Assembly (NCBI RefSeq): GCF_002443295.1
Contig: NZ_BAOS01000004.1
Span: 248,001-312,000, forward strand
Direction: 5' to 3'
DNA length: 64,000 nt
Source of the DNA: Candidatus Scalindua japonica
GTDB taxonomy: Bacteria > Planctomycetota > Brocadiia > Brocadiales > Scalinduaceae
A program made the translations under genes and the position numbers. Numbering within the stretch: the first letter of the stretch is position 1; each line of letters begins with the position of its first letter. Of this stretch, positions 9,244 through 24,217 are shown piece by piece. The notes beneath the pieces were generated by a model. It was not told the origin of the DNA, did not search any database, and worked only from the letters and a program-made list of their open reading frames with translations.

Positions 9244-12123
9244 TCACTTATATGTAATTATCAACTGTGGATGGTTGGTAGAATTGCGATTTTCACCTGA
9301 GTAGTAACCGATGTTGTCATTAACACGATCGTCATTGTCATCCTGTTGGAAATAAACACGAAATTGGGTTTTGCCTGTCATGTTGATTGCTCCCTGACCT
9401 GCTAACCCCAATTCCGCAATCGACCAGCTGTCATTGCTTGCTGCATTGCTCAATGTCGCAGCACGTGACACTGAAGCCGCTGCTTCGAAATCACCATTCT
9501 GCAGTGACGTATTTCCGCTAAATCCACCAGTTGCTACATCCACTAGACATACACCATGAGTTCCAAATGGATTGGTACCAGATACCTTTCCCCTCCTTAA
9601 GCGCAAGGTGGCGGAAAGGACTTTTGCGCCATTCGGGATCACAGAAGTGTCGAAGGAGAGGATAGATTTATACTGGCGATCTTTCCTGTCATCTCCAGAT
9701 CGTATAGAACGGCTTCCAGCGCCTGTACTGGATCTCTTGCCGCCCACATTACTATTTTCCGAGGATTCCAGTACCCAGCCATCCTCAGCACCGATAGAAG
9801 TAAGCGTGATTGTCGTTTCCCCTACCGGATTGACCGTAATCGTCACTGTACTCCTGGTACTAAGCTGACCATCGTAGCCCTTCAGTTGCAGCACATAAGT
9901 ACCCTCTTCGCTGAAATCTGCAGTTGTGTCAACGGTACTTGTATCTGAAAATATTACTGTCCCGGGACCGCTCACTTTACTCCATGTAGTTGTCACTAAT
10001 CCCGGTGGATTTGGCAATCCATCGTCCGTTACAGTACCATCAAGGACAGCACTGACGTGTAAGTCAATGACCTGATTAGATCCAGCATCCACATTTGGCG
10101 CCTGATTTACTCCCCCGATTACAGTAATATTTGTTGTTTCTGATCCTGAGTCACCACGATCATCTGTTACAGTAAGTGTTGATGCATAACTTCCGGCTAT
10201 AGTGTATGTGTGTGTCGGTTGTAATGCAGTTGAGCTGCCACCGTCACCAAAATCCCAGGAATAAGCCACAACCATTCCATTTGGATTATCAGGATCATAG
10301 GACCCGGAACCGTCAAAGTTAACTACTAATGGTACAGAACCAGTGACAGGACCAGCCACTATCATTGCAACAGGAGCCTTGTTATCAACCGTAACGGTTA
10401 CATTTGCACTGTCTGTCAGGCCGTCATTATCAGCTACAGTCAGAGTTGCCATGTAATTGCCAGGGGCATAGTATGTGTGCGTGGGGGTTATATCCAGGGA
10501 AGGACTACTACCGTCATCAAAATTCCATACGTAGCTTACAATGTTTCCGTCGGCGTCAAATGACTCATTGCCGTAAAAGTTTACAGTAAGCGGTGCAAAA
10601 CCACTTACTGTGGGACCAGCGGTTGCCATGGCTACAGGAGGTTCCATACCACCTGGATCGGGAACATTTCCGCTTATCGTGTACTTACCCAAACTTGCGT
10701 AATCTGTATAACCTGTTACCAATGGGTCGCCTTTCCCGACACCCTTGAGCATGACAAAATATTCTCCCGCAGGCAAATCCAGTACATTAAATGACGCATT
10801 CAGGCTATTTGCCGGGTTAGAACTCCTGATCAAGTTTCCACTTCCATCATAGAGGCCCGCCTCAATATCCAGATTGGGACTTAGTGATGAAGGATCGATA
10901 GTAATCAATACATCTCCATTGCCACTCACAAAGCTGAATACGTCCACATCAGTTCTTTGTTCAATGAGACCTTTGCCACTTAGAGTAACCGTGGTACCGT
11001 CTGTTGTGCTATCAAGCGAAGTGGCGGTTATTACGCTATTTCCGTGATCGTCAACCATAAGTTGAAGACCATTGTTCTTGATGACCTGAATGTCGTCTTG
11101 TGTATTATTGGCATTTGCATATTCACCCTGGCTCCATTGCACTAATTCTCGATAGTATCCAACACCCATGATCGGGGCCCATCCTGTGACTCCACTTCCA
11201 TGACCGCTGTAGTATGAAGAGCCATTAATTGTACCATCATGGCCTAAACCAAGATTGTGACCAGCTTCATGGGAAACAGCTTCTGCTAAATATTTTAGGC
11301 CCGTGTTGAAAACAAACGCCGTCTTAAAGTAATCTCCCACATAATCAAAGACACCCACATACGCAAATCCACCACAACCACAACCTGCAAAATCATCAAC
11401 CGTCATCACAACTCGCGTTCCGTATCTTTCATCACCGTTATCACTTCGTGTAATTGCATCTTGACCAGGGTCCTCTGTCGTAACATCCACATCAAATGGT
11501 GCATAATCTTCAGCAACCAGCAGCCACGCACTCTGGATGAGATCCATCTCAGCGTTGCTAAACGTTGACGTATCACCATTTATATCATATGGTTTAGCAA
11601 CAATAGTATCTCCATAACTGAGATTCCAGGCAGTGCCCGAAAGTGTGTGTCCATTAAAGTCCAGATAAATGACGCGTTTAGAGCCAGGCTTACTGTGAAG
11701 TTTAAAGGTTTTATCATAAGAAAAAGACTGTTCGGCAAGTGGAGCAGAATATTCCTCAACTGTAAGTTCTGGTTTTTCTTCAATGAATAATAATCTACCA
11801 TTTTTATCTATCCTTGCAGTATGATCTTGACGCATCATGGTAGAAAATTGCTCAGGTGTCATTCCATACCAGGCAGCCACTTCCGGCAGTTTATGTGCCA
11901 GTACTTCAATGGCACGTTCGCCTTTGGTATTTTCCGGTATAGAAATAATCGGAAACGTCGATTTGCCTTGAGGTGCTGAAAATACTGAAGTGCTCCCCAA
12001 CCCAGTCATTATAACCAGGGCAATCACAAAAAGAGAGCCAGACAACACCGCTTTCAATTCAATGTACCTTTCATGTGCTTGAGATCTTTGCTGCAATTCT
12101 TGTTGGGATACGTCCATATACAT
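9244..12123 (-). CDS. Large secreted zinc metalloprotease with PPC, PKD and DNRLRE-type domains
   Basis: 959 residues. An N-terminal hydrophobic segment (AVLSGSLFVIALVIMTGL) acts as signal or anchor. A propeptide-like region is followed by a metalloprotease domain with SHEAGHNLGLGHDG near residue 285 (HExxHxxGxxH zinc ligands plus Asp). Next come a PPC-like beta domain (DVDVFSFVSGNGDVLITIDP, AGEYFVMLKGVG), two PKD domains (YVWNFDDGSSPSLDITPTHT; YSWDFGDGGSSTALQPTHTY), a related REJ/K319-like domain (NQAPNVDAGSNQVIDL) and a C-terminal DNRLRE-like domain (ILSFDTSVIPNGAKVLSATL) that may bind surfaces or polymers. The ACAGGAG site 8 bases upstream supports the start. Probably an exported protease for extracellular proteins or matrix. 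Confidence 0.85.
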   Translation of the reverse strand: MYMDVSQQELQQRSQAHERYIELKAVLSGSLFVIALVIMTGLGSTSVFSAPQGKSTFPIISIPENTKGERAIEVLAHKLPEVAAWYGMTPEQFSTMMRQDHTARIDKNGRLLFIEEKPELTVEEYSAPLAEQSFSYDKTFKLHSKPGSKRVIYLDFNGHTLSGTAWNLSYGDTIVAKPYDINGDTSTFSNAEMDLIQSAWLLVAEDYAPFDVDVTTEDPGQDAITRSDNGDERYGTRVVMTVDDFAGCGCGGFAYVGVFDYVGDYFKTAFVFNTGLKYLAEAVSHEAGHNLGLGHDGTINGSSYYSGHGSGVTGWAPIMGVGYYRELVQWSQGEYANANNTQDDIQVIKNNGLQLMVDDHGNSVITATSLDSTTDGTTVTLSGKGLIEQRTDVDVFSFVSGNGDVLITIDPSSLSPNLDIEAGLYDGSGNLIRSSNPANSLNASFNVLDLPAGEYFVMLKGVGKGDPLVTGYTDYASLGKYTISGNVPDPGGMEPPVAMATAGPTVSGFAPLTVNFYGNESFDADGNIVSYVWNFDDGSSPSLDITPTHTYYAPGNYMATLTVADNDGLTDSANVTVTVDNKAPVAMIVAGPVTGSVPLVVNFDGSGSYDPDNPNGMVVAYSWDFGDGGSSTALQPTHTYTIAGSYASTLTVTDDRGDSGSETTNITVIGGVNQAPNVDAGSNQVIDLHVSAVLDGTVTDDGLPNPPGLVTTTWSKVSGPGTVIFSDTSTVDTTADFSEEGTYVLQLKGYDGQLSTRSTVTITVNPVGETTITLTSIGAEDGWVLESSENSNVGGKRSSTGAGSRSIRSGDDRKDRQYKSILSFDTSVIPNGAKVLSATLRLRRGKVSGTNPFGTHGVCLVDVATGGFSGNTSLQNGDFEAAASVSRAATLSNAASNDSWSIAELGLAGQGAINMTGKTQFRVYFQQDDNDDRVNDNIGYYSGENRNSTNHPQLIITYK

Positions 12124-12792: not shown

Positions 12793-14205
12793 CTAATTTT
12801 TCAGACTACTTTGTATATTCTTTGCGTCTTTAGCTGTGATACTCTTAACCTTCGCCAGGTCATCTAATGAAGCTTCTCGAATGTTCCGTAAATCGCCAAA
12901 ATATTTAAACAGGTTTTTCTTCTTAACCTGTCCGATACCGACAATTTTATCAAGTGGTGATTTGTAGTACTGCTCTTTCCTCAGCTTCTTATGATAAGCA
13001 ATTGCAAAACGGTGAGCCTCATCACGAATGTTTACCAGAAGTTTTAACTCGCAAGAGTCCTGATCCAGCACAATCGAACCCTCATTATCGCATACAAAAA
13101 TGCGCTCATCCAGCTTCTGATCTGGCCCGTCTCGTTCTGCCGCTTTCTTCCTTCCCTTTGCAAGCGCTATTACATCTACCCTGTCAACACCAAGCTCGTC
13201 AAATACCCTTCTGGCTATTCCCAGTTGACCCTTCCCACCATCAATAACCGTAAGGTCCGGAAAATCATCCTCTTTGAATGCCCTTGTATACCTTCTCGTC
13301 AACACTTCATACATCATTGCGTAATCATCAGATTGTGATACAGATCTAATCTTGTATCTCTTGTATTTACTCTTTACAGGAACACCATTTTCAAAAGCAG
13401 TCATTGATCCGACTGCCTGTTTTCCACCGATATTTGATATATCAAAGCATTCCATCCTTTTCGGTATGTTTGCCAGGCCAAGTTTTTTCTTTAATGAAGC
13501 CAGTGCCGATTCGATACCATCACTTGAATCTTCACGAATTTTAAACGCATTTTCAGCATTCTTTGTTGCCATTTCAAGTAATTTATGCTTCTCTCCCCTT
13601 TTCGGGCATATTACCCTTATCTTGTGTCCCTTTTTCTCACTTAACAGTTCTTCCAGAACTTCTTTATCTTCACTCTCGACCGGCATCAAAATTTCGTCAG
13701 GAATGAATCTTGTTCTGATATAAAATTGTTTAAGAAACGAACAGAAAACGTTACTTAATGTATCGTTAATAGTTGAAAACCTGTATGACGCAACATCCTC
13801 CAAATTACCGTTTCGTATAAACATTGCCTGTATCTGTATGCTGTTCCCCTTACCAAAGTATCCAAATACATCTCTATCTACAAACTTAAGTGTGCTGATC
13901 TTCTGGCTCTCAACTGTCTTTTCTATGGCATAAATACGGTCCCTGAATTTTGCAGCTTTTTCGTACTTCAATGCGGCAGATGCATCAGTCATTTTCTTTT
14001 TTAATACTTTTGACAACTCAGCATTTTTACCTTTCAGTACCAGAATAATCTCATTTATCAACTCTTTGTACGCTGCTTCGTCCACCATGTCACAACACGG
14101 CGCCAAACATTTTCCTATCTGATGATAGAGACATGGTCTTACTCTGCTTTTAAAGACATTATGTGAACATTTTCTGATTGGAAATAAACTATTAACATAC
14201 CTCAA
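12793..14205 (-). CDS. uvrC: UvrC C-terminal part: UVR, nuclease and HhH domains (frame-shifted)
   Basis: 470 residues covering UvrC from just after the GIY-YIG domain. Cys-rich segment VRPCLYHQIGKCLAPCC; UVR motif (KYEKAAKFRDRIYAIEKTVE) that binds UvrB; RNase H-like 5' incision nuclease (MECFDISNIGGKQAVGSMTA, LTVIDGGKGQLGIAR, RDEAHRFAIAYHKKLR); and C-terminal helix-hairpin-helices (PLDKIVGIGQVKKKNLFKYF). The apparent TTG start is only the first start-like codon after the frameshift. The true frame extends upstream through YFGPYSSSRAVRETLRYV to the A8 tract at 14258-14265, where it meets the GIY-YIG frame. Together both parts make about 610 residues, the normal UvrC length. Confidence 0.85.
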   Translation of the reverse strand: MRYVNSLFPIRKCSHNVFKSRVRPCLYHQIGKCLAPCCDMVDEAAYKELINEIILVLKGKNAELSKVLKKKMTDASAALKYEKAAKFRDRIYAIEKTVESQKISTLKFVDRDVFGYFGKGNSIQIQAMFIRNGNLEDVASYRFSTINDTLSNVFCSFLKQFYIRTRFIPDEILMPVESEDKEVLEELLSEKKGHKIRVICPKRGEKHKLLEMATKNAENAFKIREDSSDGIESALASLKKKLGLANIPKRMECFDISNIGGKQAVGSMTAFENGVPVKSKYKRYKIRSVSQSDDYAMMYEVLTRRYTRAFKEDDFPDLTVIDGGKGQLGIARRVFDELGVDRVDVIALAKGRKKAAERDGPDQKLDERIFVCDNEGSIVLDQDSCELKLLVNIRDEAHRFAIAYHKKLRKEQYYKSPLDKIVGIGQVKKKNLFKYFGDLRNIREASLDDLAKVKSITAKDAKNIQSSLKN

Positions 14206-14669
14206 TGTTTCTCGAACTGCTCTTGAGGAAGAGTATGGTCCAAAATAGAGAATATTATTTTTTTTAACCCCTTTCCTTTATCTGCTGGAGAGTCTATCTG
14301 TCTTACAATAACCGGATAGGGAAACTTCTGGTCCATATCAAGTTTTATGGACACAAACGTCTTGTCATCTCTGAGATTTACGTTAAACCTTGGTTTAAAT
14401 TGCTTGATCAGGTTGTTTTCAAGTATGAGGGCCTCTTTCTCAGTGTCAGTTAAAACAAAGTCAATATCAGCAATTCTATTTACAAGAAACTTTATAAACA
14501 ACCGTTCATCACCTGAACTCTGAAAATAGCTCCTTACACGGTTTCTAAGAACCTTTGCCTTGCCAACATAAATGACTTCTCCTCTAACATCCTTCATCAT
14601 GTATACCCCGGTTCCGGTAGGAATCGTCTTCAGTTTTGTTAATAGTTTACTGTTTTCAATCTTAATCAT
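14202..14669 (-). CDS. uvrC: UvrC N-terminal part: GIY-YIG 3' incision domain (frame-shifted)
   Basis: 155 residues. The GIY-YIG nuclease domain is complete: GTGVYMMKD and VIYVGKAKVLRNRVRSYFQS (GVY...YVG, Arg), with the catalytic Glu in TEKEALILENNLIKQFKPRF. After residue about 133 (ADKGKGLKK) the sequence becomes non-UvrC (IIFSILDHTLPQEQFEKH, stop) because of a one-base shift in an A8 run. Reading one base back restores NNILYFGPYSSSRAVRE, the expected sequence. If the shift is real and unsuppressed, nucleotide excision repair would lack a full UvrC. See the separate site entry. Confidence 0.85.
   Translation of the reverse strand: MIKIENSKLLTKLKTIPTGTGVYMMKDVRGEVIYVGKAKVLRNRVRSYFQSSGDERLFIKFLVNRIADIDFVLTDTEKEALILENNLIKQFKPRFNVNLRDDKTFVSIKLDMDQKFPYPVIVRQIDSPADKGKGLKKIIFSILDHTLPQEQFEKH
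14258..14265 (-). other. uvrC: A8 tract joining the two uvrC frames (possible slippage site)
   Basis: On the coding strand the codons are TTA AAA AAA ATA. The heptamer A_AAA_AAA is in the zero frame, the canonical form for -1 ribosomal slippage. Slipping by -1 gives AAT AAT ATT CTC TAT TTT GGA, i.e. NNILYFG, the correct UvrC frame. One extra A from polymerase slippage would have the same effect. A sequencing error in the homopolymer is the main alternative. Confidence 0.6.
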
Positions 14670-15023: not shown

Positions 15024-18000
15024 ATGGAAAGCAAGACCAAAAAACCATACCGTCATTGTCCCGGAGAAAGGTATGAAATAAATATATTCATATGTCGAGG
15101 AAGACAAAAGTCTCATTATCCAAAATGCTCTAAATGTGAGTTTAAAGATAAAACCGATGAGATCTCACAAATGCCTTCAGTAATTGAACCAGAAGAAACC
15201 TTACCTCCATCTTCACCTCCACCAAAACAGGTAAATACAGGATCAATTGTTGTTAAGAGCGAGCCACCTTCAGCAGAGATTTACCTGGATGGTGATAATA
15301 TAGGTGTCACTCCGGCTATCATAACTCAGATTCTTCCAGGCAAGTATAAATTAAAAATCAAAACAGATGGATATTATACCTGGAATCAAAGTGTGGAGGT
15401 TATGGCTAATAGAGAATCATCCTTAACTGCAATGCTACAAGGGAGAGATGGATCTCTAATGATAACCAGTGAACCGACAAATGCAGAGATTTTCATTAAT
15501 GGCAAAATTGTAGGCAGAACTCCGGAAACTATACAAAATGTAAAACCGGAGAAATATAAAATTAAACTCAAGCTTGACAAGTATGAAATATGGAATAAAG
15601 AGGTAAAAATAGAAGCGGAAAAGAAGTTATCTTTAACCGCTAAACTTATATCAAAATATGGATCTATCTCGTTAGGCAGTGAGCCAACGAAGGCAAGAAT
15701 ATTTCTGGATGGTATACAAATTGGCACAACTCCTGCACGTTTACAGTCTATTCCACACGGTACACATCTTGTAGAAGTTAAGATGGAAGGGTTTAACATC
15801 TGGAAAAAAAGTGTGAATGTTGAATCTGGCAAGGAAAGGTTATTAACAGCAATACTAAAGAGAAAGACCGGATCTATCAGTATTAATAGTAAGCCTGAAA
15901 ATGCCGGGATCTATTTAAACGGTAAATATATAGGTGAAACTCCCCACAGGATACAATCTATAATTCCCGGTACTCACGAAATACAACTCAAAATGGAAGA
16001 TTATGACGTATGGAGTGAGACGGTAAACATTGAAGCGGGAAATGAGAACACCATATCAGCAATGCTTCAAAGAAGTACCGGAACTTTAATGATAGAAAGT
16101 GATCCGGAAAACGCAATTATCTTCGTTGATGGTAAGGAAATTGGCACCACTCCTGAAATTATAATATCCAGTGCAAAAGGTAAACATATTATAGAAGTAA
16201 GGATGGACGGATATGATATCTGGAAAGAAAATGTACATATCGAGCCTGGTACAGAAAAATCCTTAACTGTAACCCTACAGCCAAAAACAGGGTCTCTCAA
16301 TATTAATAGTAAACCATCAAGTGCATCAATTTTATTAGACGGAAAAGAGACAGGGACAACTCCTGAGAAGATAAACGGTTTAAAACCCGGCACTTACCAG
16401 GTAGAAGCCAAGATTAATGGGTACGAAGACTGGTGTGAGAGTGTAAAAGTTATCGCAGACAAAGAGAACCACATAACTGCTGTACTCCGAAAATTAGTCA
16501 GCACTTTTAATGTAAAGAGTGAACCCTCTAATGCAATGGTTATTATCGACGGCACAGAGTCCGGAAATACACCTGCTAAGATAACCGATCTGGAGCCCGG
16601 CAAGCACATTGTAGAAATCAGGATGAAAGGGTATGAAACATGGACTGAAAGTGTAGAGGCAAACGTCGACAAGGAAAGTAGCATAACTGCCGTTCTTCGA
16701 AAACTAACTGGCTCAATCAATATAAAAAGTGAACCGTCAAACTCAATAATACTTTTTGATGGGGTTGAATCAGGGAATACTCCGGCAACCATTACTGACT
16801 TGAATCCAGGTACTTACAATGTTGAATTAAAGAAGGATGGGTATGAAGGCTGGAAAGAAAAAGTATATATTGTTCAAGGTAAAGAAACTTCATTAACTGC
16901 CGCACTTCAATCAATTCCAGGCTCTCTCAGTATTTACAGCGAACCATCAGACGCGACAATCTTGATAGACGGAAGAAAAACAGGCACAACGCCACTAATC
17001 ATTACTGGCCCTGACCCTGGAAACCACCTTGTAGAGATTAGAAAAGAAGGGTTTGAAAATTGGAGTGAAAGCATAAAGATTGTAAAAACTAACCAATCCT
17101 CCTTGAAGGCAGTACTTCAATTAAAAGCCGGGCCTGTTTGTATCAAAAGCCAACCGTCAATTGCAGAGGTGTTAATAGATGGTAAAGAAGTTGGAACAAC
17201 TCCTCTTATCATTACTGACCCAAGCCCGGGAACATATAATGTAGAAATAAAGAAAGACGGGTATGAAAACTGGAATGAGGATGTAATGATAGAACCGGGC
17301 AAGGAAACGGCCTTAACAGCTGTCCTGCAAGTGCAGGACGGCTCAATCATCATCAACAGTTCACCTACAGGTGCAATGATTTACATTAATGGGGAAAAAA
17401 CCGGAAAAGCACCTGAAACCATACATAATATGAGCCCAGGTAGACACCTTGTGGAAGCGAGATTAGCAGGACATGAAAACTGGAATGAAAGTGTAGAGGT
17501 GACAGGAGGCAGGGAAAGCAGATTAACAGCAACACTCAAGGAACTAACAGGTACTATAAATATTATGAGTAGTCCCCCTGATGCAATAATCATTTTGGAT
17601 GGCAAAGAAATTGGTCACACTCCCATGAGTTTGCCAGGAGTTAACATTGGTATACATGAAGTAGAAATACAAAAGGACGGCTATCTATCATGGAATAAGA
17701 CGATAAAAATAAAGGCAGGTGAAGAAAACACCTTTAATCCAAAGCTTATTGAAATAGCGGCTACTGCCAATATAAACAGCAAACCTTCAAATGCAGTTAT
17801 TTACATAGACGGCAAAGAAGCTGGCAAAACGCCTGCAATTATTACTGGAATGACTACTGGCGATCATTTAATAGAAGTCAAAATAGACAGGTATGAAGTA
17901 TGGAGTGAGAGAGTTAATATTAATCCTGGAAAGGAAATTGATGTAACTGTAGAACTCCAAATAAAACCGGGAAAAGTATCTATCGATAGTACTCCTTCAA

Positions 18001-21000
18001 AAGCATTAATATTTATAGACGGTAAAGAAATCGGTACTGCTCCAAAAACAGTTGAAGGTCGTGGCGTTGAACAGCATCAGGTGGAACTCAGAATTAAAGG
18101 ATACAAAGTCTGGAACCAGAGTATTAACATCGAACCTGGTATTGAAACCAGTGTAATGGCAGATCTGGAAATAAAATCCGGTTCTGTCAGTATCACCAGC
18201 GAACCGACAAATGCGATGATTCTCCTGGATGCCAAAAAAGCCGGATACACACCTCAAACATTAACTGATATTGTGCCAGGAAAACATATTATAGAAGTAA
18301 GGAGGGAAGGATATGATATATGGAGTAAGGGTGTAGAGGTAAATAGTGACAAGGAAATTGCATTATCTGCATCGCTCTCAAAAATTACCGGTTCTATCAG
18401 TATCAATAGTAATCAATCGGAAGCAGTAGCATATTTAGATGGTGAAAACATTGGCACAACACCATGCACTATGGAATCAGTTGTTATCGGCACACATCAG
18501 GTTGAAGTCAGGAAGGAAGGATATGCGGAATGGAGAAAAGTAGTTTATATCAAAAAGGGAAAAGAGATTTCATTAAAAGCTATGCTTCGCTCTATAACCG
18601 CCTCAATAGATCTTGAAAGTGAACCGAAAGGAGCAATGATTTTATTAGATGGAAAAGAGGTTGGTAAAACTCCTGAAATCTTAACCGGCATTAAAACAGG
18701 AATGCATAATGTAGAGATCCGGATGGACGGTTATGTTTCATGGATGAAAATGATAAAAGTTAAAGCAGGAAGAGAATACATTTTTACCAAAACACTTCAA
18801 GTGCAAAATGGTTCCTTAAACGTAACTAGCAGACCATCAAATGCAAGAATCTTTATATTTGATAAAAAAGCTGGAAAGACTCCCAAGACATTCAATGATT
18901 TAAAACCAGGAAATTATGCAATAGAAGTGAAACTTGATCAGTATCAAACATGGAGTAAAAATATTGAGATTGAACCAGGTAAAGAAACTAACCTGAAGGC
19001 GTTGCTTCAATTAAAACCTGGATCAATTGTTATTATAAGTGAACCATCAAATGCAAAAATACTTATAGACGGTGATGATTCCGGCACTACTCCTGCAACT
19101 ATTGATGACATAGAAGATGGCGCTCATATAGTAGAACTAAAAATGGAAGGGTATAAGATTTGGAGTGAAAATGTAGTTATAACAGCAGGTATACAGTCTA
19201 ACTTAACAGCCGTACTCCAGGAAATGAAGGGGTCCATAAACATCAATAGCGAGCCAACAAACGCTACAATAAGTGTAAACGGCAACATAAGCGGATCCAC
19301 ACCCGAACACATAAGGAACATAAAGCCTGGTACACACCATGTTGAAGTTATTAAGGAGGGTTTGGAGGTATGGAGTGACTATGTAGAAGTTAAGGCGGGA
19401 AGGAAAATTGAGCTATCAATCACACTTCAGCAAACGTCCTGTATAGTAAATATAGAAAGTACACCATCAAATGCAACTATTTTCATTAATAATAAAGAAT
19501 TTGGAGCAACGCCTCAAACTATAAAAACATTAAACCCCGGTCAACACAAAATTGAAATCCAAAAAGCCGGATTTGAAAACTGGAGTGAAGTCGTAATAGT
19601 TGGATCAGATAAAGAGAATACGGTAACCGCCCTGCTCCGACAAGTCACAGGATCTATTAACATTAAGAGTGATCCACCACAAGCAGAAATACTTATAGAT
19701 GATATAGAATCCGGAACCACTCCCGCAATAATAAATGATTTAAGCCCGGAAACGCATAAGATAGATATTAAAATGGACGGGTATAGTGTCTGGAGTGAAA
19801 ATCTGGAAGTCGAGGCAAATAAAGTTAAACAGGTTGATGCAACACTCCAACAAATGACAGGTTCCGTCAATATTAACAGCGAACCATCTGGTGCATTAAT
19901 GCTTATAGACGGTAAGAAACGTGGCACTACTCCTGAAATTATTACTGACATAAAACCTGGAAAATATCTGCTTGAAGCCAGTTTGAAAGGATATGAAAAA
20001 TGGAGCGAAAAAATAGAAGTTGCAGCAGATAAAGAGAATACGGTAACCGCCCTGCTCCGGCAAATCACTGGATCCATTAACATTAAGAGTGATCCGCCAC
20101 AGTCCGAAATCTTCATTGATGGTATTGAATCCGGAACCACTCCCGCAATAATAAATGATTTAAGCCCGGAAACGCATAAGATAGATATTAAAATGGACGG
20201 GTATAGTATCTGGAGGGAAAATGTGGAAGTCGTGGCAAACGAAGTTAAACAGGTTGATGCTGCACTCCAACAAATAACAGGCTCTGTCAGTGTAAACAGC
20301 GAACCATCTGGTGCATCAATAATTATAGACGGTAAAATATCAGGCATAACTCCTGAAATTATTACTGACATAAAACCTGGAAAATATCTACTTGAAGCCA
20401 GTTTGAAAGGATATGAAAAATGGAGCGAAAAAATAGAAGTTGCAGCAGATAAAGAGAATACGGTAACCGCCCTGCTCCGGCAAATCACTGGATCCATCAA
20501 CATTAAGAGTGATCCGCCACAGTCCGAAATCTTCATTGATGGTATTGAATCCGGAACCACTCCCGCAGTGATAAATGATTTAAGCCCGGAAACCCACAAG
20601 ATAGATATTAAAATGGACGGGTATAGTGTCTGGAGTGAAAATGTGGAAGTCGTGGCAAACGAAGTTAAACAGGTTGATGCTGCACTCCAACAAATAACAG
20701 GCTCTGTCAGTGTAAACAGCGAACCATCTGGTGCATCAATAATTATAGACGGTAAAATATCAGGCACTACTCCTGAAATTATTACTGACATAAAACCTGG
20801 AAAATATCTGCTTGAAGTCAGCTTGAAAGGATATGAAAAATGGAGCGAAAAAATAGAAGTTGCAGCAGATAAAGAGAATACGGTAACCGCCCTGCTCCGG
20901 CAAATCACTGGATCCATCAACATTAAGAGTGATCCACCACAAGCAGAAATACTTATAGATGATATAGAATCCGGAACCACTCCCGCAGTGATAAATGATT

Positions 21001-23264
21001 TAAGCCCGGAAACTCACAAGATAGATATTAAAATGGACGGGTATAGTGTCTGGAGTGAAAATGTGGAAGTCGTGGCAAACAAAGTTAAACAGGTTGATGC
21101 AACACTCCAACAAATGACAGGTTCCGTCAATATTAACAGCGAACCATCTGGTGCATCAATAATTATAGACGGTAAAATATCAGGCATAACTCCTGAAATT
21201 ATTACTGACATAAAACCTGGAAAATATCTACTTGAAGCCAGTTTGAAAGGATATGAAAAATGGAGCGAAAAAATAGAAGTTGCAGCAGATAAAGAGAATA
21301 CGGTAACCGCCCTGCTCCGACAAGTCACAGGATCTATTAACATTAAGAGTGATCCACCACAAGCAGAAATACTTATAGATGATATAGAATCCGGAACCAC
21401 TCCCGCAGTGATAAATGATTTAAGCCCGGAAACTCACAAGATAGATATTAAAATGGACGGGTATAGTGTCTGGAGTGAAAATGTGGAAGTCGTGGCAAAC
21501 AAAGTTAAACAGGTTGATGCAACACTCCAACAAATGACAGGTTCCGTCAATATTAACAGCGTACCATCTGGTGCATCAATACTTATAGACGGTAAGAAAC
21601 GCGGCACTACTCCTGAAATTATTACTGACATAAAACCTGGAAAATATCTGCTTGAAACCAGTTTGAAAGGATATGAAAAATGGAGCGAAAAAATAGAAGT
21701 TGCAGCAGATAAAGAGAATACGGTAACCGCCCTGCTCCGACAAGTCACAGGATCTATTAACATTAAGAGTGATCCACCACAAGCAGAAATCTTTATAGAT
21801 GGTATTGAATCCGGAACCACTCCTGCAGTGATAAATGATTTAAGTCCGGAAACTCACAAGATAGATATCAAAATGGACAGGTATAATGCCTGGAGTAAGA
21901 ATATTGTAGTCGTGGCAAATAAAGTTAAACAGATTAATGCAGTACTCCGCCAAATGTCAGGCTCCGTCAACATAAATAGCGAACCATCTGGTGCATTGAT
22001 ACTTATTAACGGCAAAAAGTACGGCACTACTCCTGAAATCATTACTGATATAAAACCTGGCAAGTATCTGATTGAAGTTAGTATGGAAGGACATGAAAAA
22101 TGGAGTGATAGTGTCGAGGTTGGAGCAGCAGAGGAAATTCCACTACGTGCTTTGCTGCAGAAATCCACCGGCTCTATTAGCATAAAAAGCACACCTGCTA
22201 AATCTATAATATATATAGATGGTGAAGAAGTTGGAGCTACTCCGGTAACTTTAAGTTCTATTTCAGTTGGTGCACATGATATACTGATTAAGGCCGATGG
22301 ACACGAGGAGTGGAAGAAATCTGTAATAATAAAAAAAGGCAAAGAATTAAGCGTAAATGCAATACTTCAACTAAATGTTGGCTCTATCAGCATTGAGAGC
22401 TATCCTGAAAATGCAATAATAAATTTAGATGGTAAAGAAGTCGGAAAAGCACCTAAACGATTAACAGATGTTATAGTAGGCACACATAGTGTTGAAGTTT
22501 TGTTGGACGGACATATCTCTTGGAAAAAAACTATTAAACTAAAAGCTGGCAAAGAAATTTCGTTATCTGCAGATCTGAAGATAGTGAACAAAACTGAGAA
22601 GCCGGAAGAAGCCCTTGCTGGTATCGCTACCGAGGCTACCTTACCAGCAAACATTATTACAGACATTAAAGAACCGGAAATCAGTACAGAAAAAAAGAAG
22701 GCAACAGTTCCAGAAGTTAAAACCGAACCAAAAAGTAACAAGAAAAGTCCTCCACCTGAAAAACAGATTAAGCTACGCTCTACTTATGGCAAAATAGATG
22801 ATTCTCTAATAGAGTCACTACCATTTCTAAAGATTCGAGAAAAGAACAGTAATATTTTTCTCTGCCATAGCGAGCTCAAACATTGTTATGAGGAAAAACC
22901 AATTGGTGATGGCGATGTCGTCATTGATCATACTACCTCTTTAATGTGGTGCCAGTCCGGGTCGTCAGAATATTTTAATCTTAAAAAAGCGAATAAATGG
23001 TTGAAAAAAATGAACAAAAATGGTTATGCGGGCTTTAAAGACTGGAGATTACCCACAATTGAGGAGGCATCATCATTATTGGAATTTGAAACAAAGAACG
23101 ATAGTTTTATAGCCCCTGTCTTTGACAACAAACAATGGGGCACCTGGACCGGTGATAAATCTGATAGAGGCCATGCATGGATTGTAACATTTGTAAATGG
23201 CACTATAACCCCGGGTCCGGTTGGATCACCCGCTACTTTTGTCAAGCCTGTCAGGTCATTATAA
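15024..23264 (+). CDS. Giant PEGA-repeat protein (2746 aa) with Cys4 N-terminus and DUF1566 C-terminus
   Basis: N-terminus residues 1-40 hold four cysteines (HCPGERYEINIFICRGRQ, then YPKCSKCEF), a likely small metal-binding module. After a Pro-rich linker (about 53-72), about 35 PEGA domains follow, each about 70 residues with the pattern 'GsI.I.SePsnA.I.iDGke.GtTP..i.dl.PG.h.vEi...GYe.W.e.v.v..gke..l.a.L'. The C-terminus (about 2620-2746) is a DUF1566/Lcl-type domain (LMWCQSGSSEYFNLKKANKW; GFKDWRLPTIEEASSLL). No signal peptide or membrane span is visible, so localisation is unclear; PEGA domains are usually extracytoplasmic. Repeats 22-33 are nearly identical AB pairs. No ribosome site is obvious upstream. 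murQ follows after 41 bp. Possible roles are structural, S-layer-like or adhesive; this is inference. Confidence 0.9.
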   Translation: MESKTKKPYRHCPGERYEINIFICRGRQKSHYPKCSKCEFKDKTDEISQMPSVIEPEETLPPSSPPPKQVNTGSIVVKSEPPSAEIYLDGDNIGVTPAIITQILPGKYKLKIKTDGYYTWNQSVEVMANRESSLTAMLQGRDGSLMITSEPTNAEIFINGKIVGRTPETIQNVKPEKYKIKLKLDKYEIWNKEVKIEAEKKLSLTAKLISKYGSISLGSEPTKARIFLDGIQIGTTPARLQSIPHGTHLVEVKMEGFNIWKKSVNVESGKERLLTAILKRKTGSISINSKPENAGIYLNGKYIGETPHRIQSIIPGTHEIQLKMEDYDVWSETVNIEAGNENTISAMLQRSTGTLMIESDPENAIIFVDGKEIGTTPEIIISSAKGKHIIEVRMDGYDIWKENVHIEPGTEKSLTVTLQPKTGSLNINSKPSSASILLDGKETGTTPEKINGLKPGTYQVEAKINGYEDWCESVKVIADKENHITAVLRKLVSTFNVKSEPSNAMVIIDGTESGNTPAKITDLEPGKHIVEIRMKGYETWTESVEANVDKESSITAVLRKLTGSINIKSEPSNSIILFDGVESGNTPATITDLNPGTYNVELKKDGYEGWKEKVYIVQGKETSLTAALQSIPGSLSIYSEPSDATILIDGRKTGTTPLIITGPDPGNHLVEIRKEGFENWSESIKIVKTNQSSLKAVLQLKAGPVCIKSQPSIAEVLIDGKEVGTTPLIITDPSPGTYNVEIKKDGYENWNEDVMIEPGKETALTAVLQVQDGSIIINSSPTGAMIYINGEKTGKAPETIHNMSPGRHLVEARLAGHENWNESVEVTGGRESRLTATLKELTGTINIMSSPPDAIIILDGKEIGHTPMSLPGVNIGIHEVEIQKDGYLSWNKTIKIKAGEENTFNPKLIEIAATANINSKPSNAVIYIDGKEAGKTPAIITGMTTGDHLIEVKIDRYEVWSERVNINPGKEIDVTVELQIKPGKVSIDSTPSKALIFIDGKEIGTAPKTVEGRGVEQHQVELRIKGYKVWNQSINIEPGIETSVMADLEIKSGSVSITSEPTNAMILLDAKKAGYTPQTLTDIVPGKHIIEVRREGYDIWSKGVEVNSDKEIALSASLSKITGSISINSNQSEAVAYLDGENIGTTPCTMESVVIGTHQVEVRKEGYAEWRKVVYIKKGKEISLKAMLRSITASIDLESEPKGAMILLDGKEVGKTPEILTGIKTGMHNVEIRMDGYVSWMKMIKVKAGREYIFTKTLQVQNGSLNVTSRPSNARIFIFDKKAGKTPKTFNDLKPGNYAIEVKLDQYQTWSKNIEIEPGKETNLKALLQLKPGSIVIISEPSNAKILIDGDDSGTTPATIDDIEDGAHIVELKMEGYKIWSENVVITAGIQSNLTAVLQEMKGSININSEPTNATISVNGNISGSTPEHIRNIKPGTHHVEVIKEGLEVWSDYVEVKAGRKIELSITLQQTSCIVNIESTPSNATIFINNKEFGATPQTIKTLNPGQHKIEIQKAGFENWSEVVIVGSDKENTVTALLRQVTGSINIKSDPPQAEILIDDIESGTTPAIINDLSPETHKIDIKMDGYSVWSENLEVEANKVKQVDATLQQMTGSVNINSEPSGALMLIDGKKRGTTPEIITDIKPGKYLLEASLKGYEKWSEKIEVAADKENTVTALLRQITGSINIKSDPPQSEIFIDGIESGTTPAIINDLSPETHKIDIKMDGYSIWRENVEVVANEVKQVDAALQQITGSVSVNSEPSGASIIIDGKISGITPEIITDIKPGKYLLEASLKGYEKWSEKIEVAADKENTVTALLRQITGSINIKSDPPQSEIFIDGIESGTTPAVINDLSPETHKIDIKMDGYSVWSENVEVVANEVKQVDAALQQITGSVSVNSEPSGASIIIDGKISGTTPEIITDIKPGKYLLEVSLKGYEKWSEKIEVAADKENTVTALLRQITGSINIKSDPPQAEILIDDIESGTTPAVINDLSPETHKIDIKMDGYSVWSENVEVVANKVKQVDATLQQMTGSVNINSEPSGASIIIDGKISGITPEIITDIKPGKYLLEASLKGYEKWSEKIEVAADKENTVTALLRQVTGSINIKSDPPQAEILIDDIESGTTPAVINDLSPETHKIDIKMDGYSVWSENVEVVANKVKQVDATLQQMTGSVNINSVPSGASILIDGKKRGTTPEIITDIKPGKYLLETSLKGYEKWSEKIEVAADKENTVTALLRQVTGSINIKSDPPQAEIFIDGIESGTTPAVINDLSPETHKIDIKMDRYNAWSKNIVVVANKVKQINAVLRQMSGSVNINSEPSGALILINGKKYGTTPEIITDIKPGKYLIEVSMEGHEKWSDSVEVGAAEEIPLRALLQKSTGSISIKSTPAKSIIYIDGEEVGATPVTLSSISVGAHDILIKADGHEEWKKSVIIKKGKELSVNAILQLNVGSISIESYPENAIINLDGKEVGKAPKRLTDVIVGTHSVEVLLDGHISWKKTIKLKAGKEISLSADLKIVNKTEKPEEALAGIATEATLPANIITDIKEPEISTEKKKATVPEVKTEPKSNKKSPPPEKQIKLRSTYGKIDDSLIESLPFLKIREKNSNIFLCHSELKHCYEEKPIGDGDVVIDHTTSLMWCQSGSSEYFNLKKANKWLKKMNKNGYAGFKDWRLPTIEEASSLLEFETKNDSFIAPVFDNKQWGTWTGDKSDRGHAWIVTFVNGTITPGPVGSPATFVKPVRSL
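15238..22585 (+). repeat. Array of about 35 PEGA-coding repeats (about 210 bp each)
   Basis: I counted 35 successive openings of the type GSIxIxSxPxxAxIxxDG, spaced 70 residues apart with almost no length variation. Repeats 1-21 and 34-35 are divergent in DNA and protein; repeats 22-33 are highly similar. Variants include repeat 15 (LLDA for the DG), repeat 18 (IFIFD) and repeat 21 (FINN), which lost the usual DG turn. Confidence 0.85.
19621..22140 (+). repeat. Six tandem 420-bp units inside the PEGA array
   Basis: The string CGGTAACCGCCCTGCTCC recurs at 19621, 20041, 20461, 20881, 21301 and 21721, exactly 420 bp apart. Each unit encodes one A-type (GSINIKSDPPQ) and one B-type (GSVNINSEPSG) PEGA domain. 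By eye, units 20041-20460 and 20461-20880 differ at only about a dozen positions. The sixth unit diverges in its second half. The pattern indicates recent unequal crossing-over or gene conversion in 420-bp steps. Confidence 0.9.
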
Positions 23265-23305: not shown

Positions 23306-24217
23306 ATGAAAGATCGCTCAAAGCTCATCACTGAACAACGCAACCCTGATACTCTCAATATCGACTGCAAATCAACTTTAGAAATCGTAGACATTATTAA
23401 TGCCGAGGATTCGAACGTAATCAATGCCGTTCATAATGAACGCCAGAATATATCAAAGGCAATTGAACTGATTGTTGATTCGTTAAAGAATAATGGACGA
23501 CTGTATTATATTGGAGCGGGAACAAGTGGAAGACTTGGAGTTCTCGATGCCTCTGAGTGCCCCCCTACCTTTGGAACAAACCCTGAGCAGGTAAAAGGCG
23601 TCATTGCCGGTGGATTTGACGCACTTACAAGATCAATAGAAGGTGCTGAGGATAGTCATGAGGATGGTGAACAGGCAATAATAGAAAATGGTATTACGGC
23701 CAAAGATACTGTCGTCGGCATAGCTACCGGCGGTACTACGCCATTCGTACACGGCGCCCTGGCACAGGCAAACAGATCAGGCGCTAACACCATCTTTCTC
23801 TGTTGTAATCCGAATTTAGAACCAAATGAATACGTTAACGTCACCATAATACCATTAACCGGTCCTGAAGTAATTACCGGATCTACTCGAATGAAGGCAG
23901 GCACAGCAACAAAGCTTATACTTAATACCCTTACTACCACATCAATGATAAAAATGGGAAAGGTTTATGAAAACTTCATGGTTGACCTTCAGGTGAAGAA
24001 CGCAAAGCTTAGGGACCGTGCTGAACGTATTATAATGTCGGTTACAAATGTTGACAGAGACTCTGCAGACAATCTGTTAACAAAGGCGAAGGGCAACGTA
24101 AAGACTGCCATAGTTATGCATAAGCTACAGACGGACTATGGTGAAGCCAGAAAAAAACTTGATAAATATGATGGTTACGTCAGAGATGTGCTAAACAGTG
24201 CTAATTTAAAAAAATAA
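23306..24217 (+). CDS. murQ: N-acetylmuramic acid 6-phosphate etherase MurQ
   Basis: 303 residues, normal MurQ length. It has the SIS-fold features LYYIGAGTSGRLGVLDASEC, PPTFGTNPEQVKGVIAGG, EGAEDSHEDG and GIATGGTTPFVHGAL, and the family signature EVITGSTRMKAGTATKLILN. MurQ cleaves the D-lactyl ether of MurNAc-6-phosphate to GlcNAc-6-phosphate, in cell-wall recycling. No anhMurNAc kinase (anmK) or PTS is in view, so the source of MurNAc-6-P is unknown. It follows the PEGA giant gene by 41 bp in the same direction and may be co-transcribed. Confidence 0.95.
   Translation: MKDRSKLITEQRNPDTLNIDCKSTLEIVDIINAEDSNVINAVHNERQNISKAIELIVDSLKNNGRLYYIGAGTSGRLGVLDASECPPTFGTNPEQVKGVIAGGFDALTRSIEGAEDSHEDGEQAIIENGITAKDTVVGIATGGTTPFVHGALAQANRSGANTIFLCCNPNLEPNEYVNVTIIPLTGPEVITGSTRMKAGTATKLILNTLTTTSMIKMGKVYENFMVDLQVKNAKLRDRAERIIMSVTNVDRDSADNLLTKAKGNVKTAIVMHKLQTDYGEARKKLDKYDGYVRDVLNSANLKK

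Follow-up and report, generated by a model that had tools for sequence, protein, structure and literature searches.

As a rule, PEGA proteins that have been characterised are either exported lipoproteins or located at the cell surface, and the CnaB-type stalks of Gram-positive bacteria are exported and often isopeptide-bonded. The PEGA domain was originally defined in cell-surface proteins (PMC2447325). The C-terminal domain of Legionella Lcl (Lcl-CTD), an extracellular, C-type-lectin-like trimer without the usual calcium and carbohydrate motifs, binds glycosaminoglycans (GAGs) (PMC11162425). PEGA and Lcl_C (DUF1566) domains were found together in a giant protein encoded in the window, i.e., the whole stretch of 64,000 nucleotides analysed here from the 4.8 Mb genome of Candidatus Scalindua japonica (Brocadiales; genome G000 below).

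The giant shared with PEGA proteins (PF08308) the 70-residue beta-sandwich domain, and differed from them by the number of domains (35, and 54 in the relative from genome G010) and by lacking the leader typical of characterised members. The multi-PEGA Leptospira lipoproteins of the LIC10124 type (NCBIfam NF047815) were a partial model match: the giant scored 557.1 bits, below the cut-off of 650, and the G010 relative exceeded this cut-off (763) by repeat number. A lipobox signal peptide was absent in the giant, its first cysteines lying within the N-terminal four-cysteine (Cys4) module with no hydrophobic leader. As in Legionella Lcl, the giant's Lcl_C head sits at the end of a long stalk of repeats, but the stalk of Lcl is collagen-like and the protein is secreted and binds host GAGs, whereas the giant has a PEGA stalk and no leader. 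The likeness to Gram-positive CnaB-type stalks (TIE 6fwv, pilins) was that of a tandem beta-sandwich rod, and with about 10-14% identity and a large rmsd over domain chains it is an analogy only. A Brocadiales phosphomannomutase/phosphoglucomutase-like (PMM/PGM-like) protein carried a Cys4 module with identical C-x11-C-x10-C-x2-C spacing, followed by four PGM_PMM domains where the giant continues with PEGA. No paper on PEGA giants in anammox bacteria was found in the literature searched. PEGA, Lcl_C, PMM and Panacea are of known kinds. New are how large the protein is and how strictly its register is kept, that the clade lacks export signals, that its N-terminal adaptors are exchanged, and that Cys4 is described as a module of planctomycetes.

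Architecture of the giant and of its locus

The open reading frame at 15024-23264 (+) translated into 2,746 residues without internal stop. Features of the locus, in window coordinates, were as follows:

12793..14669, minus strand: uvrC as two ORFs (GIY-YIG part 14202-14669; rest 12793-14205), divergent upstream neighbour (synteny)
15024..23264, plus strand: giant PEGA protein gene (2,746 aa, ~0.3 MDa)
15042..15155, plus strand: Cys4 module, residues 7-44 (homologous to the start of the phosphomannomutase-like protein of Brocadiales)
15156..15233, plus strand: Pro/Glu-rich linker, residues 45-70, probably disordered (AlphaFold pLDDT mostly <50 at residues 39-67)
15234..22583, plus strand: array of 35 PEGA domains of 70 residues each, residues 71-2520 (landmarks, Pfam, model)
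19644..22163, plus strand: youngest block, six 420-bp tandem units of two domains each that make up PEGA 22-33 (TRF, pairwise and dN/dS analysis)
22584..22772, plus strand: low-complexity linker, about residues 2521-2583 (pLDDT <50 at residues 2525-2578)
22773..23261, plus strand: LRSxY and Lcl_C (DUF1566) C-terminal lectin-like module (Pfam match at residues 2632-2744; Foldseek match 8q4e)
23306..24217, plus strand: murQ, N-acetylmuramic acid 6-phosphate etherase, downstream neighbour (NCBIfam TIGR00274, 391 bits against a cut-off of 302; synteny)

The giant displayed 35 G-x-[TA]-P landmarks, all 34 intervals being exactly 70 residues, and belonged to Pfam PEGA (PF08308) with 1671 bits (gathering threshold 20.8) over 35 separate stretches. 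The Lcl_C match (PF07603, DUF1566) reached 71.2 bits (gathering threshold 34.9) at residues 2632-2744. The ORF, landmarks and Pfam matches bore out what had been read from the letters of the DNA, namely about 35 PEGA domains at strict 70-residue spacing in 2746 residues, between a Cys4 N-terminus and a DUF1566 C-terminus.

When five PEGA domains were modelled with AlphaFold, pLDDT was about 90 in most blocks, and the relative arrangement of the domains was uncertain (pTM 0.41). The array had no direct sequence relatives in the PDB, and the best structural neighbours of its model were extracellular beta-sandwich stalks (Bacillus thioester adhesin TIE 6fwv, pilins), as well as S-layer proteins. 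The strict register and the confident PEGA models support the extended rod proposed earlier. That this register is held over up to 54 domains suggests that neighbouring domains pack tightly, as changes in the linkers are usually tolerated when an array is flexible. The Lcl_C model recovered the fold of the Legionella Lcl C-terminal domain (8q4e; Foldseek TM-score 0.67 by target), with the DWRLPT...E core residues retained and a disordered linker joining PEGA 35 to the head. In the model of window 22365-23261, a PEGA domain resembled chain Y of the Kuenenia hydrazine dehydrogenase complex (6hif; TM 0.62 by target, 20% identity), possibly just through a common fold; a literature search on this resemblance found nothing.

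Five other Scalindua genomes carried orthologues of the giant next to uvrC, murQ or both, either complete with both flanks (G012), with the downstream flank only (G007) or as two contigs with one flank each (G004, G006, G008). The adjacency of murQ fits sugar or envelope-precursor metabolism, although gene position carries little weight here, uvrC being unrelated. The two uvrC ORFs overlapped by 4 bases, and their split looks real rather than a sequencing error since both pieces also lie side by side in G004, G006, G008 and G012. Further along the minus strand, window 9244-12123 encoded a probably exported 959-aa protein with PKD domains, a reprolysin-like metallopeptidase match and an N-terminal hydrophobic segment.

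Repeat evolution and the family of giants

TRF detected a tandem array within the giant gene at 19598-22105. The six 420-bp units of PEGA 22-33 were 79-97% identical in nucleotides, other repeats being mostly about 40-60% identical to their nearest array neighbours, and the G012 orthologue had no comparable near-identical block. Judged from these identities, the 420-bp block is a recent lineage-specific expansion. Values of dN/dS ranged from 0.16 to 0.38 over all 15 pairs of young units, which points to purifying selection acting on the youngest repeats and maintaining their protein sequence.

Repeat order was conserved across genomes. The G012 array held 24 repeats, of which repeats 1-7 and the final two corresponded, in the same order, to repeats 1-7 and the final two of the window's giant, and the arrays of G003 and G010 were collinear over 37 of 37 repeats. 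Spacing in every sequenced array was 69-71 residues, nearly always 70. An assembly artefact, which the sequence-only reading had named as what would undo it, was ruled out: the units vary in sequence, the orthologous arrays come from independent assemblies of several genomes, repeat order is conserved, and dN/dS is low among the youngest units. Contigs of G004, G006 and G008 terminated within arrays, as expected because repeats defeat short-read assembly. Since several assemblies end in this way, it is likely that many Scalindua MAGs show the giants cut short or not at all.

Array size varied from 6 to 54 PEGA domains across giants. The largest, in the sister lineage G010, was 3,988 residues long with 54 PEGA; there were at least 37 PEGA and a separate contig end in G003, 12 PEGA in G014, which is of a related genus, and 5-6 PEGA in a paralogue on contig C24 of the window's own genome. 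Elsewhere, none of the 148 other planctomycete genomes sampled exceeded seven strong PEGA matches. In a tree of 40 C-terminal modules, all 11 giants formed one clade (100/100) amid mostly signal-peptide-bearing Lcl_C proteins. Their Lcl_C modules shared a cysteine, F-x-C-H-S (C-Y-S in G007), where exported proteins read FYGHS or similar. The giants are a real, conserved single family of marine anammox bacteria.

Exchangeable N-terminal modules

The first 44 residues of the giant matched one other protein of its own genome, the N-terminus of a 523-residue PMM/PGM-like enzyme with four intact PGM_PMM Pfam domains (47-50% identity; pairwise E 6.5e-10). A Cys4-module match at E <= 1 was obtained in 54 of the 59 genomes searched, nearly all with E < 1e-6; matches typically lay in a frame of about 500-590 aa, those inspected being PMM-like. 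Looking for this N-terminus on further proteins of Brocadiales, as the sequence-only reading had suggested, thus gave a clear positive: as read from these matches, the Cys4 module is found on a PMM/PGM-like protein in nearly all Brocadiales. Distant planctomycetes carried it, intact or degenerate (the second cysteine being sometimes lost), on PMM-like proteins. Small stand-alone planctomycete proteins of about 60-70 aa (L152, L153, L154 and others), outside Pfam, consisted mainly of Cys4 (CPGxxYxIxxxxCxxRQ...C..C).

In the giant, the module reads C12-x11-C24-x10-C35-x2-C38 and, with ten invariant columns in alignment A2, follows the fixed-spacing motif CPG-x(n)-C-[RK]GRQ-x3-YPKC-x2-C, the consensus being CPGxxYxIxxxxCxGRQxxxYPKCxxC. 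It was carried by the giants of G000, G004, G006, G008 and G012, the N-terminus of G007 being unassembled. No credible family was found for Cys4 in Pfam or PDB, and tenascin-R and CapR were rejected as relatives, their matches being weak or due to chance. Four cysteines with fixed spacing suggest a putative zinc knuckle. Structure prediction, also proposed beforehand, yielded a model of the module, at low confidence (AlphaFold pLDDT about 58-61). Cys4 is a planctomycete module without an existing family model, present on a core sugar-phosphate mutase.

Other giants displayed other N-termini. Those of G010, G003 and G001 began with VPIKKLLIDKSINAAYKYLKYLGAEVQIYG or a close variant, and a similar stretch lay ahead of PEGA in L164, which bears a leader and matches CsgG weakly, below threshold. 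The PEGA giant of G014 (L095, C57) opened with a Panacea domain (SocA-like); short, repeated LIAEKMKLWKER helices came next, and then a VPIKKLLIDKSINAAYKYLKYLGAEVQIYG-like stretch. Because the VPIKKLLIDKSINAAYKYLKYLGAEVQIYG-like stretch precedes PEGA in both the exported L164 and the G014 giant, these alignments suggest descent from an exported PEGA protein whose leader was lost and which gained new modules at its front.

Location and possible role of the giants

Signal peptides were judged by hydrophobicity (Kyte-Doolittle) and by eye. The giant had no hydrophobic leader (best 19-residue Kyte-Doolittle mean of -0.66 within residues 1-60) and no transmembrane segment (whole-protein maximum of 1.06), which agrees with the earlier remark that no signal peptide is visible. 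No alternative leader occurred upstream of the start in any of the three frames, ruling out a hidden upstream signal peptide or a frameshifted start. Signal peptides and transmembrane segments were likewise absent in the giants tested (G000, G010, G012, G014 and the C24 paralogue), and no giant whose N-terminus is known showed either. Short Lcl_C paralogues from the same genome bore an N-terminal hydrophobic leader in six of the seven tested. This genome also encoded at least nine further LRSxY-Lcl_C type proteins (L110-L118), most with signal peptides; fusions to a caspase-like region (L112) and to an ankyrin-like region (L117) were seen by eye.

The proposal that such a rod could span a wall or link cells found no support, as giants with a known N-terminus lack an export signal, most short Lcl_C paralogues have one, and the N-terminal modules are of cytosolic-protein kinds. 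The most likely location is the cytoplasm or its membrane face. At the level of sequence, the giants are a single family with a single C-terminal clade, no export signal, a 70-residue PEGA rod, an Lcl_C tip and a Cys4 module shared with a PMM/PGM-like enzyme. Their best explanation, to which we give about even credence, would be a leaderless, probably cytosol-facing giant tether, equipped with exchangeable adaptors at the N-terminus and descended from a surface-type stalk-plus-lectin ancestor whose export signal was lost.

The ancestor would have been an exported protein of PEGA/Lcl_C type, whose signal peptide would have been lost in the Scalindua lineage. Adaptors would then have been placed before the array: Cys4 as on PMM, Panacea, or a helix left over from an exported domain with weak likeness to CsgG. 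Judging from homology, the Cys4 knuckle, probably Zn-binding, may dock the giant to a partner also used by the PMM enzyme. The PEGA array would act as a stiff spacer, of roughly 0.1 micrometre if each domain takes about 3-4 nm, and the Lcl_C head may bind glycan-type ligands or trimerise, by analogy with Legionella Lcl. The outcome would be a multivalent internal scaffold through which a distant site is connected with sugar metabolism or with envelope precursors; a Cys4 adaptor together with a lectin-like head fits sugar or envelope-precursor metabolism.

Counting against a cytosolic tether, PEGA, Lcl_C and their structural neighbours (TIE, pilins, S-layer proteins) are mostly extracellular. 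Leaderless secretion exists and would be compatible with these sequences. The main rival is a leaderless-secreted adhesin-like stalk at the surface or in the periplasm, exported without a classical signal peptide, its Lcl_C tip binding matrix glycans or other cells and Cys4 being an unconventional export or anchoring signal. The definition of PEGA in cell-surface proteins (PMC2447325), the extracellular GAG-binding trimer of Lcl-CTD (PMC11162425), the thioester adhesins and pilins nearest to the array in structure and the export of most Lcl_C paralogues all speak for such a stalk. We nevertheless consider it rather unlikely, with no leader or upstream alternative in any giant of known N-terminus, an extra cysteine in the giants' Lcl_C module, Cys4 also on the PMM/PGM enzyme and Panacea filling its slot in G014, both expected to be cytosolic.

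A cytosolic sensor or regulator, with Lcl_C as ligand-sensing head, Cys4 or Panacea as output adaptor and the array as spacer, like multidomain signalling or conflict proteins, would agree with exchangeable N-termini in front of a constant array and head. Panacea/SocA is generally known from toxin-antitoxin and proteolysis-adaptor contexts. Such a sensor is improbable, since the neighbours are housekeeping genes and PADLOC defence models matched none of the three proteins scanned (Panacea-type giant, C24 paralogue, PMM protein), whereby a defence system was rejected. DUF1566 proteins can be targets of diversity-generating retroelements; the genome has RT genes, yet no near-identical template for Lcl_C diversification (the best DNA match elsewhere in the genome reached 71%), which speaks against the sensor and led to the rejection of a retroelement target. 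An inflated, little-constrained repeat protein, its length being a tandem-duplication by-product without length-dependent function, is in line with the recent 420-bp expansion and the varying array size, but is already disfavoured, and highly improbable, given the low dN/dS among young units, the repeat order conserved between species and the frame and 70-residue register held over up to 54 units.

Beyond the leaderless tether itself, it is a tentative possibility that Scalindua turned an exported stalk-and-lectin protein into a family of giant rods inside the cell, reaching ~0.44 MDa and 54 PEGA, whose cytosolic adaptors can be swapped, one being related to the front of a sugar-phosphate mutase; these rods would form a cytoplasmic titin-like scaffold in the compartmentalised anammox cell. 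PEGA and Lcl_C are regarded as surface domains; if the internal placement is true, the leaderless giants would be an internal structural protein in bacteria with unusually complex cell plans, and their family would offer a test case for the relocation of exported proteins to the cytoplasm.
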